Source: Pseudomonadota bacterium (lineage in GTDB: Bacteria; Pseudomonadota; Gammaproteobacteria; Steroidobacterales; Steroidobacteraceae). Taken from it: 64,000 nt of DNA. The stretch covers positions 62,001 to 126,000 of the forward strand of contig JAFEDS010000031.1 of assembly GCA_018241505.1 (NCBI GenBank), read 5' to 3'. The notes beneath the pieces are model-generated. The model saw only the letters and a list, made by a program, of their open reading frames with translations. It ran no database searches and was not told the DNA's origin. This document shows positions 1,423-62,024 of this stretch, in pieces (within the stretch, counting starts at the first letter, position 1; each line of letters begins with the position of its first letter). Both the position numbers and the translations under genes were made by a program.

Positions 1423-5242
<3,820 letters not shown>

Positions 5243-33956: not shown

Positions 33957-35296
33957 GAGGGGGGCGGATCGTCACGGATGTTGAGGAAGTCGGAACCGTT
34001 GCTGCATTGACGCACGACGCGGAAGGTGTCGTCCGTGAGGGTAAAGCGGCGTTCGTAGCCGGTGCTTTGCCCGGTGAGAAAATCCGCTTCAAGCGCACGC
34101 GCCGTCATCGTCAGCACGACGAGGCGGTGTTGTTGGAAGTGATCGAGCCTTCGCCCACGCGCGTCGTACCGAAGTGCGCTCATTTCGGAGTGTGCGGCGG
34201 CTGCGCCCTGCAACACCTGTCCGCCGACGCGCAGCTCGAAATCAAACAAACGGAGTTGCGCGACAATCTCGAGCGCGTGGGCAAGGTAACGCCGCGCGAA
34301 TGGCTGCCGCCGCTTCGCGGTCCGGTCTGGAGCTATCGCCGCCGGGCCCGCTTGGGCGCCAAGTTCGTCACCAAGAAGGACCGGATGGTCGTCGGATTCC
34401 GCGAGCGCCTGGCGCCCTACGTAGCCGAAGTGCAGCGCTGCGAGGTGTTGGCGGAACCGGTCGGGGCGTTGATCGCGCCCCTGGCGGCACTGCTGAATGA
34501 GCTGAGCATCCGGCATCGTATTCCCCAGATTGAGACGGCGGTGGCTGACAATGTCGTGGCGCTTGTGTTGCGCGTGCTCGAGGCGCCGTCGGCGGAGGAT
34601 GTCAGCAAACTGAAGGCGTTCGCTCAGGCACACGCGGTTCGCTTCTATCTTCAAACCGCCGGTTTGGATTCCGTGGCTGCGTTGGAAGCAGCCGGCGAGG
34701 CCCTGCGCTACGGCTTGCCGCAATTCAAGCTGCAACTGGAATTTACGCCGACCGACTTCGTGCAGATCAACGCGCAGATCAATCAGGCTCTCGTGGGCCG
34801 CGCCGTGGAATTGCTCGAGCTCACGCCGTCGTCTGCGGTTCTCGATCTTTTTTGCGGACTGGGCAACTTCACTCTCGCGCTGGCTCGCAATGCCGGCCGT
34901 GCCGTGGGAGTGGAGGGAGACCGGGGGCTGGTGGAGCGGGGCCGGCACAACGCCCGCCTGAACGGAGTCAGCAACGCCGAGTTCCACATGGCCGATCTCG
35001 GAAAGCCGCTGGATGCGTCAGTACCGTGGTTGCAGGAGTCGTATACCCATGTGCTCCTGGATCCGCCACGCGCGGGCGCGAGCGAGGTGTTGGGCTCCAT
35101 CAGCCGGCTGAATCCACAGCGGGTGTTGTATATTTCGTGTCACCCCGGCAGCCTAGCCCGGGACCTGGGATTGCTCGTACACGAACAGGGGATGAACCTC
35201 GTGGCCGCAGGTGTGTTGGATATGTTTCCGCATACGACGCACGTCGAGTCGCTGGCGATTCTCGAGCCCGGCAAACGCAAAGGGCGCCCGGGATGA
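33953..35296 (+). CDS. rlmD: 23S rRNA (uracil(1939)-C(5))-methyltransferase RlmD
   Basis: About 447 aa. It methylates U1939 of 23S rRNA. The N-terminal TRAM domain (DAEGVVREGKAAFVAGALPG) is followed by the Fe-S cysteines in PKCAHFGVCGGCALQHL. The SAM-binding part has VLDLFCGLGNFTLALA. The catalytic region is LLDPPRAGASEVL..YISCHPGSLARDL, where most RlmD/TrmA proteins read SCNP; the Asn-to-His change deserves note. I prefer TTG 33953, with GGGAG eight bases upstream and a 4-base overlap with the upstream stop. ATG 33938 is the alternative. Confidence 0.94.
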   Translation: MRGGRIVTDVEEVGTVAALTHDAEGVVREGKAAFVAGALPGEKIRFKRTRRHRQHDEAVLLEVIEPSPTRVVPKCAHFGVCGGCALQHLSADAQLEIKQTELRDNLERVGKVTPREWLPPLRGPVWSYRRRARLGAKFVTKKDRMVVGFRERLAPYVAEVQRCEVLAEPVGALIAPLAALLNELSIRHRIPQIETAVADNVVALVLRVLEAPSAEDVSKLKAFAQAHAVRFYLQTAGLDSVAALEAAGEALRYGLPQFKLQLEFTPTDFVQINAQINQALVGRAVELLELTPSSAVLDLFCGLGNFTLALARNAGRAVGVEGDRGLVERGRHNARLNGVSNAEFHMADLGKPLDASVPWLQESYTHVLLDPPRAGASEVLGSISRLNPQRVLYISCHPGSLARDLGLLVHEQGMNLVAAGVLDMFPHTTHVESLAILEPGKRKGRPG

Positions 35297-36348
35297 GTCT
35301 CGGGCCGCTGATGATCGACCTCAGCGGGACGGCCATTGCGCCCGACGAGACCGAACTGATGCGGCATCCCCTCGTTGGCGGCGTCATCCTCTTCACACGG
35401 AACTATGTCGATTCGGAGCAGCTCACCCAGCTCGTCGCCGCCATCCACGCCGTTCGCAGTCCACGCCTCATTGTTGCGGTGGACCATGAAGGCGGCCGGG
35501 TCCAGCGTTTCCGTTCAGGTTTTTCGGAGTTGCCCCCGGCCCGCCGTATCGGCCACGAGTTCGATCTGGACACCCGTGCTGGACTCAGTCTTGCCCGGCA
35601 CATGGGGTGGCTGATGGCCGCCGAGTTGCGCTCCACCGGTGTCGATATTTCGTTTGCCCCGGACGTGGACCTCGACTACGGCATCAGTGAGATCATCGGG
35701 GACCGCTCCTTTCACGCCCGTCCCGAGGTGGTGGGTCAACTGGCCGTTGCCTACATGCACGGCATGCGGGAGGCGGGCATGGCCGCCACCGCGAAGCACT
35801 TTCCAGCCCATGGCGCCGTTGTGGCCGACTCCCACCTGACCCTCCCGGTGGACCGCCGGGAGCTCCCCGACATGGCGGATGATCTTTCTCCCTACTACCG
35901 GCTGATTGCCAATGGCCTGCCGGCTGTCATGGCGGCGCATGTGCTGTTTCCGGCGGTGGATTCGCTGCCCGCGAGCCTGTCGTCTCGCTGGATCCGGGAC
36001 GTGTTGCGCGGTGATCTGAGGTTTCAGGGAGTAGTGTTTTGCGACGATTTGTCCATGGGTGGGGCTGCCGCGGCATACGGAGATATTGTGACCCGTGCAC
36101 GCCAGGCCCTTTCCGCGGGTTGTGACATGCTACCGGTCTGTAACAATCGGGCTGGTGTAGTTACCTTACTCGATCGTCTGAATGTTGAGCCCGAACCGAC
36201 ATCCCGGCTCCGCCTCGTGCGGATGCACGGTAAGGATGGCGTTCCGTGGCGGGAGTTGTCTTCGGTGCCCGAGTGGAAGAGGAGCCGTGAGTTGCTGGCG
36301 CGCTGCACAGTGGCGCCAACATTGAGTCTGGAGGCCGGCCGTAAATGA
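35293..36348 (+). CDS. nagZ: beta-N-acetylhexosaminidase NagZ
   Basis: 351 aa. This cytoplasmic GH3 enzyme removes GlcNAc from 1,6-anhydroMurNAc muropeptides during peptidoglycan recycling. Visible features are GGVILFTRNYVDSEQLTQL, VAVDHEGGRVQRFR, FAPDVDLDYG, the catalytic-loop region TAKHFPAHGAVVADSH and CDDLSMGGA with the nucleophile Asp. The usual motif is KHFPGHG...DSH; here the Gly is Ala, while the His and the DSH remain. Its stop overlaps the next start (ATGA). Confidence 0.95.
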   Translation: MSLGPLMIDLSGTAIAPDETELMRHPLVGGVILFTRNYVDSEQLTQLVAAIHAVRSPRLIVAVDHEGGRVQRFRSGFSELPPARRIGHEFDLDTRAGLSLARHMGWLMAAELRSTGVDISFAPDVDLDYGISEIIGDRSFHARPEVVGQLAVAYMHGMREAGMAATAKHFPAHGAVVADSHLTLPVDRRELPDMADDLSPYYRLIANGLPAVMAAHVLFPAVDSLPASLSSRWIRDVLRGDLRFQGVVFCDDLSMGGAAAAYGDIVTRARQALSAGCDMLPVCNNRAGVVTLLDRLNVEPEPTSRLRLVRMHGKDGVPWRELSSVPEWKRSRELLARCTVAPTLSLEAGRK

Positions 36349-37280
36349 ACAACTGGTCCGCCGAGGCGTGGCGCAGTGTCGTGGACAATGCCCCCGAGGG
36401 CATTGTCGTCTGCGATGCGACCGTGCCGGACCTGCCGGTCATTTATGCCAATGCCGCCTTCGCCCAGATGTGCGGGTATCCGGTTACCGCGCTGCTCGGC
36501 ACCAACTTGCGGATGCTGCAGGGAACAGACCAGGACCAGGAAGCCCGCCAGAAAATCAAGGAAGCGGTGGAGAAGGGCGAACCCGCCCGCGTCCTGATCC
36601 GGAACTACCGTCCTGATGGCACGCTGTTCTGGAACGAATCGGTCATCCAGCCCGTGCGCGATGCGTCGGGTCAGATTACTCAATACATTGGTTATCACCG
36701 CGACGCCAGCGACCGCTTGCGCAATAGCGCGGAACGCGTGACGGCGGGCTTGCCGCCCTGGCTGCGTGAAGATCGCCTGACCGGCCTGCATTCACGGGCC
36801 TATTTCCAAGAGCTGTTACAGCGAGACTGGCTGCTGGCGCAACGCGATTCGCACGAGATCGGACTGACTCTGTTCGATATCGATGACCTCAACAGTTACA
36901 ACGAAACGTTCGAGAAAACGGGCGGCGACGCCTGCATTCGGCGGGTTGCGCGGGTGATCGGGGCTTCCTACCGGCGCGGCGGCGATCTGGTGGGTCGTTG
37001 GGACGGTGGGACGTTTGCTGTGTTGACGCAGGGTGATGCGGCTGAGAAGGCATCGCACTACGCACAGATTGTCAGTCAACGGGTGCGCGACCTGTTGATG
37101 CATCACCCCCGTGCCGGCTCGGAACGCTATGTGACAATCAGTGCGGGCGTGGCGAGCCTGGTGCCGCCTCGCGAGCTGCCCCTCGAGGCGCTTCTAAAAG
37201 CAACCACGGCGGCCCTGAAGCGCGCGAAGAAGTTGGGCAAGAACAGTATCTCGAATGCCGAGGCCGCTGACTTTCACTGA
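36345..37280 (+). CDS. PAS/LOV-like sensor with degenerate GGDEF domain
   Basis: 311 aa, soluble, with no membrane segment. Residues about 10-124 form a PAS domain very close to LOV photoreceptor domains: GTNLRMLQG (residues 52-60), NYRPDGTLFWNE (87-98) and IGYHRD (115-120). The canonical LOV motif is GRNCRFLQ, so the adduct-forming Cys is Leu55. The flavin-side Gln of the last strand is His118. Residues about 140-305 form a GGDEF domain that retains DRLTGLHSR and FDIDDLNSYNE. In it, the active site RxGGDEF reads RWDGGTF (218-224), so the catalytic Asp/Glu are lost. An RxxD inhibitory site (RGGD, 211-214) is kept at the correct distance. It may be a c-di-GMP receptor or a scaffold rather than a cyclase. 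It is translationally coupled to nagZ. Confidence 0.88.
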   Translation: MNNWSAEAWRSVVDNAPEGIVVCDATVPDLPVIYANAAFAQMCGYPVTALLGTNLRMLQGTDQDQEARQKIKEAVEKGEPARVLIRNYRPDGTLFWNESVIQPVRDASGQITQYIGYHRDASDRLRNSAERVTAGLPPWLREDRLTGLHSRAYFQELLQRDWLLAQRDSHEIGLTLFDIDDLNSYNETFEKTGGDACIRRVARVIGASYRRGGDLVGRWDGGTFAVLTQGDAAEKASHYAQIVSQRVRDLLMHHPRAGSERYVTISAGVASLVPPRELPLEALLKATTAALKRAKKLGKNSISNAEAADFH

Positions 37281-37315: not shown

Positions 37316-37918
37316 TCAACGCCCCGCGGGTCTCGCACCTTGTGCCGGCGTCACGAGCGCGATGACCCCGAACGCGGGGTGATCGTAGTAGTTGCGCTCA
37401 TAAAACTTCACGCGGCGATCCTCATTCAGTTTGAACTCGGTGCCGGGGCTCGCACCCAACCCTGCGGGCGGCGCAGGAATGGCATAGCTCAGCGCCATGC
37501 CCAGGTGCAGATACTGACCGCGCTGCAGGTACACGGTGCCGTTCAGGCCGGGCACATCGACTCCGAGCTTTTGCAGGGGGAAGCCCGCCTTCGTGCCCCA
37601 CGCGCTCGCGGTCTGCGCCCAGGCAACATGGGCCACCGGCACGTAGGCACCGCTGGACTTCAGCTTCGACTCGATGTCGCCGAGTTGGAATTGATCGGCA
37701 CCGAGTGTGCTGATGAAACGGCCAACCTGCGAGGAGCCGCTGGCGTTTTCCTCACCAACCGTGTTGCCCGCGCCGCTCTCGGCGCTCCAGTTCTCGCCGC
37801 CGCCCTGCGCGCCGTTGGCGCGAAAGACAATGATCTCGATGTGATAGCCGGGTGTGGCGGCATCCTGGGACCAGGCGGGCAGGGCCAGCAAGGCCAGCCA
37901 GAGCATTCGTAATTTCAT
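37316..37918 (-). CDS. csiV: CsiV-like exported protein
   Basis: 200 aa with a signal peptide (MKLRMLWLALLALPAWSQ). The mature N-terminus YHIEIIVFRANG and the C-terminal LNEDRRVKFYERNYYDHPAFGVIALVTP fit the CsiV family, a periplasmic peptidoglycan-binding protein that in Vibrio affects LpoA/PBP1A. It is encoded next to mfd in other gammaproteobacteria. It is the last gene of the minus-strand cyclase-mfd-csiV set, starting 15 bases after mfd. I am moderately confident in the family and less so in the function. Confidence 0.8.
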   Translation of the reverse strand: MKLRMLWLALLALPAWSQDAATPGYHIEIIVFRANGAQGGGENWSAESGAGNTVGEENASGSSQVGRFISTLGADQFQLGDIESKLKSSGAYVPVAHVAWAQTASAWGTKAGFPLQKLGVDVPGLNGTVYLQRGQYLHLGMALSYAIPAPPAGLGASPGTEFKLNEDRRVKFYERNYYDHPAFGVIALVTPAQGARPAGR

Positions 37919-37933
37919 AATCGCCAGTATAGT

Positions 37934-40900
37934 TCAGCGCCGTTTCGGCGGGGCTGCAGGGGGTTTGCCCGGGGGTGTCTTGCCGCCACCGGCCGGCTTC
38001 GGTGCCTGCGGTTTCGGCTTCTGCGCCAGGCGCTTCATCAGATCGGCGGCAAACTCGAAGCGCTCCGTCTCACTGCCCAGCAAGTGGGCGATACGCAGCT
38101 TCAGCGAGCCTTCCAACCTGAATTCCAGCGGGTCCTGCTGAATCATCTGGATGACGGTGAGCGGGTCGATCTGGTTGCGTTCTTCGAACAGGATCGTGCC
38201 GCCGCTCGCCCCCATGTCCATGCGCCGGATGCCGAGCCCGCGCGCCTGCAACTTGAGCTTCGCCAGCCCGAGCAGATTCTGTGCACTGTCAGGCAGAGGG
38301 CCGAAGCGGTCATAGATCTCCGCATTCAACTCATCCAGCGCCTCATCTGTTTCGGCCCCCGCCAGGCGCTTGTAGAGTCCCAGGCGTACATGCACGTCGG
38401 CAACATAGGCCTCCGGCAGGAAGGCGGGCAGGCGCAATTCAACTTCGGTCTCGGCGGCCAGCGGCTTGTCGAGGTTCGGTTTCTGACCCTGCTTCAAGGC
38501 CTTCACGGCCTGCTCCAGCATGTCCATGTACATGGCGAGGCCGATTTCGGTCATCTGGCCACTTTGTTGTTCGCCCAGTAACTCGCCGGCGCCGCGGATT
38601 TCCAGATCGTGGGTGGCCAACACGAAGCCGGCGCCCAGGTCCTCCATGGACTCGATGGCTTCCAGGCGCTTGGCGGCATCGCCGGCCAGCGCCTTGCGCG
38701 GTGGCGCCAGGAGGTACGCATAGGCGCGGTGGTGCGAGCGACCCACCCGGCCGCGCAACTGGTGCAACTGCGCCAGGCCGAACCGATCGGCCCGGTTGAT
38801 CATGATGGTGTTGGCGGTCGGCACGTCGATGCCGCTTTCAATGATGGTGGTGCACACGAGCAGATCGAAACGGCGATGATAGAAGTCGACCATCAACTGC
38901 TCGAGATCGCGCTCGCGCATCTGGCCATGGCCGATGCGCACACTGGCTTCCGGAATGAGCGCCTGGACTTCAGCGGCGATTTTCTCGATGGTCTTCACTT
39001 CGTTGTGCACGAAGTACATCTGTCCGCCACGCCGCAATTCGCGTAGCGCTGCTTCGCGCAGTGTCGGCCCGTGCCATTCGATGATGAATGTCTTGATGGC
39101 CTGGCGCATCGCCGGTGGCGTGGTAATCAACGACAGATCCCGCAGACCGCCCAACGCCATGTTGAGAGTACGCGGGATGGGAGTGGCGGTCAGAGTGAGT
39201 ACGTGTGTATCCGCACGCAGCGCCTGCAACCGTTCCTTGTCGCGCACACCGAACCGATGTTCCTCATCGACGATGATCAGACCGAGATCCTTGAATCGGG
39301 CGTGCGAATGCAGCAGCCGATGAGTCGCCACGACAATGTCAACCACACCGCTTTCGATTCCCGCGATGGTGTTGGCGATCTCCTTCGAGTTGCCGAAGCG
39401 CGAGAGCGCTTCGACCCGCACCGCCCAATCGGCGAAGCGATCCCGGAAGTTGGTCATGTGCTGTTGCGCCAGCAGGGTCGTAGGGGCGAGCACCGCGACC
39501 TGTTTGCCGGCTTCAACCGCCGCGAACGCCGCGCGCATGGCCACTTCGGTCTTGCCGAAGCCCACATCGCCGCACACGATGCGGTCCATGGGCTTGCCGC
39601 CCTTCATGTCATTCAACACGCTGCGGATGGCCTCGGCCTGGTCCTCGGTCTCATCGAACGGGAAGGCATCGGCGAACTTCTGGTATTCCTGCTCGCTCAC
39701 TTCGAGCTTCACGCCCTGTTGGGCCTTGCGGCGCGCATACAGATCGAGCAGCTCGGCGGCCACATCACGAACCTGCTCGGCCGCTTTGCGCCGGGCCCGG
39801 GCCCACTGGTCCGTTCCCAACTTGTGCAACGGCGCGCTCTCCGGCGCCGCGCCCGTATAACGGGTGACCAGGTGCAGTGAATGGACCGGCACATACACCC
39901 GGTCGCCGTCCATGTATTCCAACACGAGGAATTCGCCGGACTGGCCGGCGATCTCCATCACCTGCAGGCCGACATAACGGCCGACACCGTATTCCTGGTG
40001 GACGACCGGCGCCCCGGGATTCAGGTCCTGCAGATCGCGCAGGATGGCTTCCGGATCGGACGCGGCGCGTTTGCGCCGGCGCTGCTCCTGGCGCGCCCGC
40101 TGACCGAAAAGCTGTGCCTCCGAAATGATGGCGATCGCCGGGCCCGTGAGGGTCAAACCCTGCAGGCCCGGAGCGACTGTCAGCGCGAGCCTGGCAGCGC
40201 TGGCGGTGAATTCCTCCCAACCCTGTACCGGCGCAATCTGGTACCCATGACCCCGCAACATCTCCTGCAACACTTCGCGCCGTCCCGGCGAATCCGCGGC
40301 AATCAGGACCCGCCCGGCAAACTCATTCAGGAACAGATCCAGTGGCGCGAATGGGTGCTCGGCACGGGCATCGATGCGCAGCTCGTGCACCGCCGTGGTC
40401 GGGAAGTTGTAAACAGGGTCGGCGCCGCTGCCCGGCAGCTCCGTGTCCGCCTTGAAGGTATTCAGGGTAACGGAGGAAAACTGCGCCAGCCGGGTGTCGA
40501 TGTCCTTCGGACTGATGAACAACTCGGTGGGCGCGAGAACCGGCCGCTCGATGTCGTGGCGGCGATCCTCGTAGCGCGCTTCGATGCCTTCCCACGACTT
40601 GGCCAGCGCCCCCGGCAAGTCCGAGTCGTGCACCAGCACCGCGTTGTCAGGTAAATAGTCGAATAGTGTCGCCGTCTCATCAAAGAACAGCGGCACGTAG
40701 AACTCGATTCCAGCCGGCGCGACGCCCTCGCTGACTCCCCGATAAATGGAAGCTCGCGTTGGATCGCCTTCGAAGCGCGTCCGGAAGCGGCGGCGGAACT
40801 CCCGGACGCCGTCGGGATCGAGCGGGATTTCGCGGGCCGGCAGCAAGCGGATGCGCTCGAGCGAATCGAGTGATCGCTGGGTGTCCGGATCAAAGCGCCG

Positions 40901-41482
40901 GATAGCCTCGATCTCATCGTCAAACAGGTCGATGCGCAGCGGGGCCGTCGTACCCATGGGATAGACATCGAACAGGGAGCCGCGAACCGCGTACTCGCCC
41001 GGGCTGGCCACCTGGCTGACACTGACATATCCCGCTTCCACCAGCCGCTGGCGGAAGGGCTCGAGCGCCAGTGCTTCGCCGACCGCGAGCTCGAAGGCGC
41101 GGCCCTGAACGTAGTTGCGCGGCGGCAGCCGCTGCATCAACACGTCGGCTGCGACGACGAGGCAACCGGACTGCAGGCGCGGCAACTCGAAGAGCGTTCG
41201 CAGGCGCTGCGAGGTGATATCCGGATGCGGCGAGAACAGGTCGTAGGGCAACACCTCCCAGTCAGGAAGGGTCAGCAGCGGCAAGCGCTCGCCCGCAAAG
41301 AATTGCAGCTCGGCGGACAGCCGCTCGAGCTCGCGCGCGTCGTCGGTGACGACCACGTACAGCCGTTGATCTGACCGGGTCGCCTCGGCTAGGGCCAACG
41401 CGGCAGCGCTGCCGTAGAGCTGGTGCCAGCTCAGGCGTCGTTGCTTGGTTGTAGGGACCTGGGGCTTGAGAAGTAGGGCCAT
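37934..41482 (-). CDS. mfd: transcription-repair coupling factor Mfd
   Basis: 1182 aa. Mfd removes stalled RNA polymerase and recruits UvrA. The N-terminal UvrB-like domains (to about residue 350) include LPDWEVLPYDLFSPHPDITSQRL (in part). The RNAP-interacting domain has PGAPVVHQEYGVGRYVGLQ. The helicase shows GDVGFGKTEVAMRAAFAAV (Walker A), DEEHRFGV (DEEH box), LTATPIPRTLNMA and QLRGRVGRSHHRAYAYLL. The TRCF domain is at the C-terminus, which ends in a Pro/Lys-rich tail (about 25 residues). It lies 12 bases downstream of the cyclase gene. Confidence 0.98.
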   Translation of the reverse strand: MALLLKPQVPTTKQRRLSWHQLYGSAAALALAEATRSDQRLYVVVTDDARELERLSAELQFFAGERLPLLTLPDWEVLPYDLFSPHPDITSQRLRTLFELPRLQSGCLVVAADVLMQRLPPRNYVQGRAFELAVGEALALEPFRQRLVEAGYVSVSQVASPGEYAVRGSLFDVYPMGTTAPLRIDLFDDEIEAIRRFDPDTQRSLDSLERIRLLPAREIPLDPDGVREFRRRFRTRFEGDPTRASIYRGVSEGVAPAGIEFYVPLFFDETATLFDYLPDNAVLVHDSDLPGALAKSWEGIEARYEDRRHDIERPVLAPTELFISPKDIDTRLAQFSSVTLNTFKADTELPGSGADPVYNFPTTAVHELRIDARAEHPFAPLDLFLNEFAGRVLIAADSPGRREVLQEMLRGHGYQIAPVQGWEEFTASAARLALTVAPGLQGLTLTGPAIAIISEAQLFGQRARQEQRRRKRAASDPEAILRDLQDLNPGAPVVHQEYGVGRYVGLQVMEIAGQSGEFLVLEYMDGDRVYVPVHSLHLVTRYTGAAPESAPLHKLGTDQWARARRKAAEQVRDVAAELLDLYARRKAQQGVKLEVSEQEYQKFADAFPFDETEDQAEAIRSVLNDMKGGKPMDRIVCGDVGFGKTEVAMRAAFAAVEAGKQVAVLAPTTLLAQQHMTNFRDRFADWAVRVEALSRFGNSKEIANTIAGIESGVVDIVVATHRLLHSHARFKDLGLIIVDEEHRFGVRDKERLQALRADTHVLTLTATPIPRTLNMALGGLRDLSLITTPPAMRQAIKTFIIEWHGPTLREAALRELRRGGQMYFVHNEVKTIEKIAAEVQALIPEASVRIGHGQMRERDLEQLMVDFYHRRFDLLVCTTIIESGIDVPTANTIMINRADRFGLAQLHQLRGRVGRSHHRAYAYLLAPPRKALAGDAAKRLEAIESMEDLGAGFVLATHDLEIRGAGELLGEQQSGQMTEIGLAMYMDMLEQAVKALKQGQKPNLDKPLAAETEVELRLPAFLPEAYVADVHVRLGLYKRLAGAETDEALDELNAEIYDRFGPLPDSAQNLLGLAKLKLQARGLGIRRMDMGASGGTILFEERNQIDPLTVIQMIQQDPLEFRLEGSLKLRIAHLLGSETERFEFAADLMKRLAQKPKPQAPKPAGGGKTPPGKPPAAPPKRR

Positions 41483-41494
41483 CTAAAGCAGGTG

Positions 41495-42310
41495 TCAGGC
41501 CTCCAAAGGCACCTGGCTCACCTGCACGCGCGAATGCAATGGCACGCAATAGATGTCGATGGGATTGGTCCGGCCGCGCAAAATCATGGGCGGCAAGGGC
41601 AGGGCGCCGATGTCGAGTCCGTGCGCATCCAGCGACTGCTTGATGGCGCCCGAGAACAACATCTCCCCGGAGCGGGCACGTTGACAGAGGCGCGAGGCAA
41701 TATTCACCGCGTCGCCGATGATCGTGTAGCTCATGTAAGCGGAAGAACCGACGTTGCCGGCAACCACATCGCCCTCGTTGATACCGATCCCGAGGCCCGC
41801 ATCGATCTGGTAACGGCGCTTCCAGGACTGCGCCAGGTTGGAGAACCCGTCCAACATCTCCCGGGCGGTCTTGATCGCCCGGGTGGAGCTGTCTTTCTGC
41901 TCGAGCGGTACTCCGAAGCCCAGCATGAGGCAGTCACCGGCCATGTGAAAAACGGTGCCGTCGTGCCGGAATGTAATCTCTGTGAGCAGGGAGAAGTATT
42001 CATTCAGCAGCGGCACCACCTCGTGCGGCGCCAGTTGCTCGGACATGCTGGTGAAGCCGCGCAGGTCGGCGAACAGGACCACTGCGTGGGTGCGTACGTC
42101 GTTGCTCGACAGCAGGCTGTCCCGCAACTGCACATCCTGGAGGATTTTGTCGGCGAGCCGGGGCGAGACATAGCGGCGGAACGTCTCCCGCATCGTGTCT
42201 TCCCGGCGCTTGATCTCTTCCTCGAGCTGGGCGGCGGCGACTTTTCGCCGCACCGCTCCCGCTCTCATGAGGGCCTCGATCCGAGTCCTCAGAAACTCAT
42301 CAGCCGCCAC
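41495..42310 (-). CDS. class III nucleotide cyclase, soluble
   Basis: 271 aa, with no membrane segment. An N-terminal helix (about residues 1-45, likely coiled coil) leads into FRRYVSPRLADKIL and a class III cyclase domain. Metal Asp residues are in LFADLRGFTSMSEQL and HMAGDCLMLGFG, and the ribose/transition-state residues in TIIGDAVNIASRL. The position that is Lys in adenylyl cyclases (KFxGD) is His here (HMAGD), so base specificity cannot be read from this residue. The other specificity position is Thr, as in bacterial class IIIb cyclases. It heads the cyclase-mfd-csiV operon. Confidence 0.88.
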   Translation of the reverse strand: MAADEFLRTRIEALMRAGAVRRKVAAAQLEEEIKRREDTMRETFRRYVSPRLADKILQDVQLRDSLLSSNDVRTHAVVLFADLRGFTSMSEQLAPHEVVPLLNEYFSLLTEITFRHDGTVFHMAGDCLMLGFGVPLEQKDSSTRAIKTAREMLDGFSNLAQSWKRRYQIDAGLGIGINEGDVVAGNVGSSAYMSYTIIGDAVNIASRLCQRARSGEMLFSGAIKQSLDAHGLDIGALPLPPMILRGRTNPIDIYCVPLHSRVQVSQVPLEA

Positions 42311-61709: not shown

Positions 61710-62024
61710 TTACTTGGAGATCGAACGCTTGAACATGCGGTCGATTTTCTCGTTGGTGGCGTCAACAGCCGACTGGCTCGCCTGAGCGGCGGCCAACGCC
61801 TGGTTGGCGGTGCTCTGTGCGCTGCTGGCAGCCTGGTTGGCGGCCTGCGCGGTGCTGTTGGCCTGGTCGGCGGACGACTTCGCAGCGGCCACATCCGACT
61901 GCAGCTTCGCTACCTGTGACTTGAGGTCTGCGACATCCGCCTGGAGGGGCTTCAGATCCTGACAGCCTGCGAGTCCCGCCACGACTGCCACCGCAGCCAC
62001 CTTCATAACGATCGCGCTCTTCAT
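61710..62024 (-). CDS. alanine-zipper lipoprotein (Lpp/OprI-like)
   Basis: 104 aa. The signal sequence MKSAIVMKVAAVAVVAGLAGC ends in a lipobox (LAGC, Cys 21). The mature part is a heptad-rich helical coil: LKPLQADVADLKSQVAKLQ, then Ala/Ser/Gln-rich repeats (AQAANQAASSAQSTANQA) and a basic end (DRMFKRSISK). This resembles the Lpp/OprI/alanine-zipper family of abundant outer-membrane lipoproteins. The C-terminal Lys could correspond to the residue linked to peptidoglycan in Lpp. It has an AGGGGA ribosome-binding site and a strong terminator. It is monocistronic. Confidence 0.85.
   Translation of the reverse strand: MKSAIVMKVAAVAVVAGLAGCQDLKPLQADVADLKSQVAKLQSDVAAAKSSADQANSTAQAANQAASSAQSTANQALAAAQASQSAVDATNEKIDRMFKRSISK

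Follow-up and report, generated by a model that had tools for sequence, protein, structure and literature searches.

In WspR, an active diguanylate cyclase, bis-(3′-5′)-cyclic dimeric guanosine monophosphate (c-di-GMP) binds to an inhibitory site (I-site) that serves feedback inhibition and is formed by R242 and D245 of an RxxD motif together with R198, which is supplied by a neighbouring GGDEF domain (PMC2270323). The same source mentions, as unpublished data, that the catalytically dead variant WspR-GGAAF bound added c-di-GMP, and CdgA of Bdellovibrio (Bd3125), which combines a degenerate GGDEF motif (GVNEF) with RxxD, is reported to have no cyclase activity and to bind c-di-GMP with a dissociation constant of about 2 µM (PMC3271064). 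GGDEF domains also occur behind LOV domains in the light-activated LadC cyclases, for which linker lengths of 21 and 35 residues are reported (PMC10396304), and BAT-LOV is described as having a LOV-like pocket without the adduct-forming cysteine (PMC4682037). Assignments of degenerate GGDEF domains to the c-di-GMP receptors have often been guesses from one sequence. The locus analyzed here lies in a stretch of 64,000 nucleotides (the window; positions 62,001 to 126,000 of contig JAFEDS010000031.1, assembly GCA_018241505.1) from a Pseudomonadota bacterium of the family Steroidobacteraceae, order Steroidobacterales, and contains an open reading frame for a protein with a LOV-like PAS domain followed by a GGDEF domain (Table 1). 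Comparison of this gene across the order suggests that its product is probably a catalytically dead GGDEF protein working as a c-di-GMP receptor.

Over residues 11–301 the protein has its best PDB match in 8c05 (1e-47), the sensor-domain diguanylate cyclase MsLadC of PMC10396304, with which it shares the order and size of the LOV-like PAS and GGDEF domains and an I-site of the form RGxD. Unlike the LadC cyclases, it has neither the LOV cysteine and glutamine nor a GG[DE]EF motif, and its linker measures 26 residues versus 35 or 21. Likeness to CdgA is by description, and the excerpts of PMC3271064 mention no LOV-like domain in that protein. Alignment places R218-W-D-G-G-T-F224 opposite RYGGEEF of WspR and MsLadC, and R211, D214 and R167 opposite R242, D245 and R198 of WspR, although the latter is an active enzyme; the R167 column was counted on the alignment. 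RWDGGTF at the active site and the upstream RGGD at residues 211–214 were features that an earlier sequence-only reading had picked out, and both are as it described them. The protein falls with the degenerate-GGDEF c-di-GMP receptors in that the catalytic motif is lost while RxxD, five residues upstream, and the second arginine are present, and it falls outside the active diguanylate cyclases, LadC included, as GG[DE]EF, the GGDEF lysine and a 21- or 35-residue linker are all missing.

The gene is a member of a degenerate-GGDEF family that forms one branch of the tree and occupies the same nagZ…csiV–mfd locus (nagZ, mfd and, below, rlmD are names that we presume from the protein sequences). 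A profile built from 13 members gave hits at 184 loci, of which 147 were syntenic (nagZ, csiV or mfd in the fetched stretch) or scored >215 bits; these reduced to 128 non-redundant loci, 121 of them syntenic and 119 with the GGDEF part. Left out were seven non-syntenic rows (L025, L059, L074, L129, L146, L153 and L161) and two contig-end fragments (L027 and L048). The 119 members span eight family codes of the order plus seven named records without a code, and as the rows are related the counts below are not independent events. R211 is present in all 119 members, D214 in 118 (one has Glu) and R167 in 117; R218 is found in 114 and P255 in 119, the latter giving HHP where MsLadC has HHK. In the 58 representatives at <62% identity, R211 and D214 are kept together in 58, R167 in 57 and Pro255 in 58. 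An intact [GSA]G[DE]EF, in contrast, is found in 0/119 members, with 75 different pentapeptides at the site, and the GGDEF lysine (column 183, which we take to be K332 of PleD) is kept in none. Partial retention was seen for D178 (70/119), N186 (64/119) and D195 (103/119, with Glu in 15 more), but the combination of D178, K183, [DE]222 and E223 occurs in 0/119. Thus an order-wide family separates the two sites, with the I-site fixed while the active site drifts through many variants, so that a selected function can be proposed ahead of experiment.

The genome that holds the window encodes 56 GGDEF domains in all, and the 55 others served as a control. Forty of these have an intact active site, and RxxD, counted on the ungapped sequence, is present in 24/55: 23 of the 40 intact domains and one of the 15 degenerate ones. 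That lone degenerate domain with RxxD (L228) reads GGEEL and is thus nearly intact. In this genome, loss of the active site is normally accompanied by loss of the I-site, and the family does the reverse. The 15 degenerate domains are L228, L240, L247, L253 and L255–L265, 14 of them without RxxD; L255, L259 and L260 read GGGTF, GGGSF or SGGTF, which is near DGGTF, but have no I-site.

As a two-part I-site is kept across the order while the active site is destroyed, the c-di-GMP receptor reading is the one we favour, and by comparison the earlier proposal of a c-di-GMP effector rather than a cyclase appears to be borne out. In the mechanism we envisage, c-di-GMP from the cell's own cyclases would bind the I-site as an intercalated pair, held between R211/D214 in one GGDEF domain and R167 in a second one; this bridging would change the dimer or its contacts with a partner. 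The N-terminal PAS domain would tune the response, in the window's lineage through a cysteine-less Leu/His pocket that may hold flavin or another ligand. The fixed place at nagZ…csiV–mfd suggests a link to cell-wall turnover, and would give a putative c-di-GMP receptor a conserved position amid genes for the cell wall. Deletion of nagZ in Enterobacter cloacae is reported to have raised c-di-GMP, apparently via an EAL gene elsewhere (PMC11197897).

A number of points weigh against a receptor function. Two members, L173 (GDDEF) and L179 (EDDEF), retain both acidic motif residues and are thereby close to a normal motif, but have Arg at column 183 in place of the lysine; these are possibly intermediates or partial reversions. 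The profile includes the I-site columns, such that members without the I-site may be under-sampled, and of the nagZ loci without a hit 23 were checked with 1.5 kb flanks, only eight being clear enough to exclude a hidden member. In eight genomes (L197, L200–L203 and L206–L208), csiV or mfd follows nagZ within the stretch without an intervening family gene, which means that the gene can be missing, and its absence from part of the genus and family makes it dispensable. Lastly, the LOV dimer of MsLadC has a groove into which the I-site packs as well (PMC12805367), and retention of the I-site could thus have another cause. The chief rival explanation follows from this packing: the site would be kept as a protein–protein interface, either for PAS–GGDEF packing or for an outside partner, and not for c-di-GMP. 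We consider this unlikely, as the I-site is equally constant in the 61 members whose PAS domain is not LOV-like (R211 in 61, D214 in 61 and R167 in 59), is also found where the PAS fails to align (L178 and L179), and is combined with linker lengths that vary widely; an outside partner would still be conceivable. Moreover, the contact of D44 with R174 in MsLadC, itself a hypothesis in PMC12805367, would call for an acidic residue in the D44 column, yet D or E is present there in just 16/119 members and 3/58 LOV-like members, with R167 kept regardless. A degenerate domain that binds GTP or another nucleotide allosterically, as in CC3396, or that has another activity, as in YybT, has precedents (PMC7288161) and could draw on the retention of N186 and D195; with the lysine gone throughout, D178 in little more than half of the members and none of these residues as constant as the I-site, it is an improbable explanation. 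An active cyclase with an unusual active site would have parallels in an AGDEF cyclase reported to be active (PMC3974145) and in the motifs of L173 and L179, but both acidic residues occur together in only 2/119 members and the linker is other than 21, 28 or 35 residues in 113/119. This reading, extremely improbable in our estimate, was rejected since the catalytic residues come together in no member. An equally remote chance attaches to a decaying remnant without function, as might be suspected from the gene being missing in part of the genus and family. The ratios of nonsynonymous to synonymous substitution rates (dN/dS) of 0.044, 0.082 and 0.073 in three pairwise comparisons within the window's clade, each below those of nagZ, csiV, rlmD and mfd with synonymous sites, however, close to saturation (dS 1.2–1.6 for the PAS–GGDEF gene), contradict a pseudogene, as do columns that are constant across families, and this reading was likewise rejected.

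A further explanation, compatible with a c-di-GMP receptor, applies to the LOV-like members only: a sensor of flavin redox state, or of weak photoreduction, with c-di-GMP-dependent output. We hold this as a tentative possibility. The PAS domain of the window protein has its best NCBIfam match in the YtvA blue-light receptor family (residues 11–126, 4.3e-30; under the cut-off, with 105 versus 250 bits), and the pocket residues N54, R56, Q59, N87 and N97 are all present; the LOV asparagines of YtvA are given as N94 and N104 in PMC4682037. The LOV motifs GTNLRMLQG and IGYHRD, with Leu55 in place of Cys and His118 in place of Gln, are as the sequence-only reading stated, and the protein thus has neither the photoactive Cys nor the Gln of LOV photoreceptors. 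Taking R56, Q59 and N87 as signature, 58/119 members are LOV-like (49 in family f1, seven named records without a code, one in f11 and one in f3) and 61/119 are not. The 58 LOV-like members carry L55 in 56 (one has Cys, L026, and one Phe), N54 in 49 (D in nine), N97 in 48 and H118 in 49. At <70% identity, L55 is found in 19/21 representatives and H118 in 16/21. These frequencies mark Leu/His as a long-kept pairing of the lineage and not as an oddity of a single genome; the pocket may still be able to accommodate flavin. Among close relatives, the expectation that the same Leu/His substitutions would recur held for L55, invariant in 26/26 ortholog rows, but not for residue 118, which is H, Y or S.

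Residue 118 is accordingly not fixed and the signature is missing in 61/119 members, both of which speak against flavin sensing as the function of the family. Published work on LOV photochemistry points in both directions. Cys-less LOV proteins are able to signal via photoreduction (PMC4682037), and the LOV Gln is described as generally dispensable; with His in its place, however, YF1 and NmPAL no longer responded to light and the response of AsLOV2 was not preserved, and among Cys/Gln double variants semiquinone formation was low in one with Leu and the response was weak in one with Asp (PMC9098866). BAT-LOV, unlike the window protein with its Leu and His and its fusion to a dead GGDEF domain, is reported to keep the Gln and to have Pro for Cys. 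Some natural Gln-less LOV receptors have His (PMC9098866), and so the case for light sensing is not closed. The light sensing that the sequence-only reading had offered nevertheless fares poorly, with the Cys absent in 57/58 and the Gln in 58/58 LOV-like members, and light gating as the leading explanation was set aside given that the two photochemical residues have been exchanged and that LOV-like members make up only half of the family. Judging from these substitutions, the PAS domain of the window's lineage is probably not a blue-light switch.

The relationship of the family to intact LOV cyclases was examined by building a quick midpoint-rooted tree, with no bootstrap and with several inner forks unresolved, from the GGDEF part after removal of the active-site columns. 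The 58 family representatives and the f14 copies form one branch (Shimodaira–Hasegawa-like approximate likelihood ratio test, 99), which is nested in a larger branch (95) that also holds four LOV-GGDEF proteins (L059, L129, L146 and L161) in which the Cys, the Gln and GG[DE]EF are all present, as well as L060, which is neither LOV-like nor carries GG[DE]EF. The linker of the four LOV cyclases is 35 residues by the LadC definition (31 measured + 4). In the family, lengths of 21, 28 or 35 residues are found in 6/119 members, the measurements resting on the profile alignment, and with most members off these lengths the coiled-coil register that drives cyclase activation is, as far as the alignment tells, no longer kept. 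Tree and linker are in keeping with a light-activated cyclase as ancestor and a later loss of enzyme activity, and with intact LOV cyclases as nearest kin the family looks like a traceable passage from photoreceptor enzyme to non-enzymatic receptor. In a speculative scenario, to which we give a fairly low probability, a LOV cyclase would have turned once, near the base of the order, from sender into receiver; it would have lost Cys, Gln, catalysis and linker register, kept the complete I-site and settled at nagZ…csiV–mfd. Its descendants would now tie the recycling or synthesis of peptidoglycan to c-di-GMP and, in one lineage, also to a flavin pocket with Leu/His and no Cys. The f14 members (L025/L092/L180 and L153) have Pro at the LOV cysteine, a degenerate GGDEF (KENSI, QNNSI) and an intact I-site; none of the three locus genes (nagZ, csiV, mfd) lies in the stretch fetched for them, and they represent a relocated branch.

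The extent of the family was followed from genus to phylum. A full-length copy is present in 17/37 same-genus genomes, the own one included, the other 16 at 70–91% identity, and one further genome (G032) has a contig-end fragment; of the 11 loci that a related-locus search returned at ≥70% identity, three encode the same protein as copies already in the set. All 24 ortholog rows that reach the active site read [DE]GG[TSA][FL]. Other families of the order have divergent homologs (25–33% identity) at the same position between nagZ and csiV–mfd. At E≤1e-60 the profile matched 145/246 genomes of the order, with a single match in each except G518, and at E≤1e-45 it matched 95/150 genomes of the family, while 0/397 other genomes in a phylum-wide draw matched at E≤1e-60. 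A class-wide draw of 369 genomes led to 30 fetched loci, 25 of them from outside the order; none of nagZ, csiV and mfd was found in the fetched stretch of these 25, and 21/25 have the GG[DE]EF pattern. The synteny of 121/128 loci is partly circular, synteny being one entry criterion, but by score alone (≥264 bits) 88/90 non-redundant rows are syntenic, the remaining two being the f14 rows L025 and L153. No published description of the nagZ…csiV–mfd degenerate-GGDEF family was found in the open-licence literature, judged mostly by title and the opening of the abstract.

Table 1. Coordinates of the PAS–GGDEF gene, its domains and motifs, and its neighbours in the window.
Feature	Positions	Strand	Remarks
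nagZ	35293..36348	+	upstream; shares 4 nt with PAS–GGDEF gene
PAS(LOV-like)–degenerate GGDEF gene	36345..37280	+	311 aa; orthologs in same genus
LOV-like PAS domain, residues 17–122	36393..36710	+	Pfam PAS_9, 2.7e-19
GTNLRMLQG, residues 52–60; codon 36507–36509 = Leu55 at LOV cysteine	36498..36524	+	
NYRPDGTLFWN, residues 87–97; N87 and N97 at conserved LOV asparagines	36603..36635	+	
His118 at LOV glutamine, within IGYHRD 115–120	36696..36698	+	
PAS–GGDEF linker, residues 121–142	36705..36770	+	26 residues by LadC definition
Degenerate GGDEF domain, residues 143–300	36771..37244	+	Pfam PF00990, 4.5e-32
Arg167, aligned with WspR R198 (second I-site arginine) and MsLadC R174	36843..36845	+	alignments
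I-site RGGD, residues 211–214	36975..36986	+	
DGGTF, residues 220–224, replacing GG[DE]EF	37002..37016	+	
Pro255 of HHP motif, family mark	37107..37109	+	same in 119/119 members
csiV	37316..37918	-	Pfam CsiV; convergent neighbour
mfd	37934..41482	-	next gene of conserved locus

In the window the nagZ stop codon and the ATG of the PAS–GGDEF gene overlap within ATGA, and the coupling to nagZ that the sequence-only reading had proposed is real here. It does not extend to the family as a whole, since the 4-nt overlap was found at 44/112 measured loci and a gap of >300 bases at 33/112. In two loci that were scanned, a phosphorylase-superfamily gene (L143) and a phosphoribosyltransferase gene (L155) stand between nagZ and the family gene. 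The constant setting is the nagZ…csiV–mfd locus. L204 and L205 also gave weak profile hits close to nagZ; these were discarded, as they are PAS-containing open reading frames that lie on the opposite strand and on the other side of nagZ, are truncated where the stretch ends, and do not occupy the family's place. In 11 same-genus genomes without the gene (L188–L196, L198 and L199), neither csiV nor mfd was detected in the 1.5 kb flanks of nagZ, and in L188 nagZ is followed by a gene for an HlyD-type membrane-fusion protein (2624–4036). Adjoining mfd in the window, a gene at 41495–42310 (-) encodes a 271-residue protein with a class III adenylate/guanylate cyclase domain (Pfam Guanylate_cyc, 3.5e-21), and is a second cyclic-nucleotide signalling gene of the neighbourhood.

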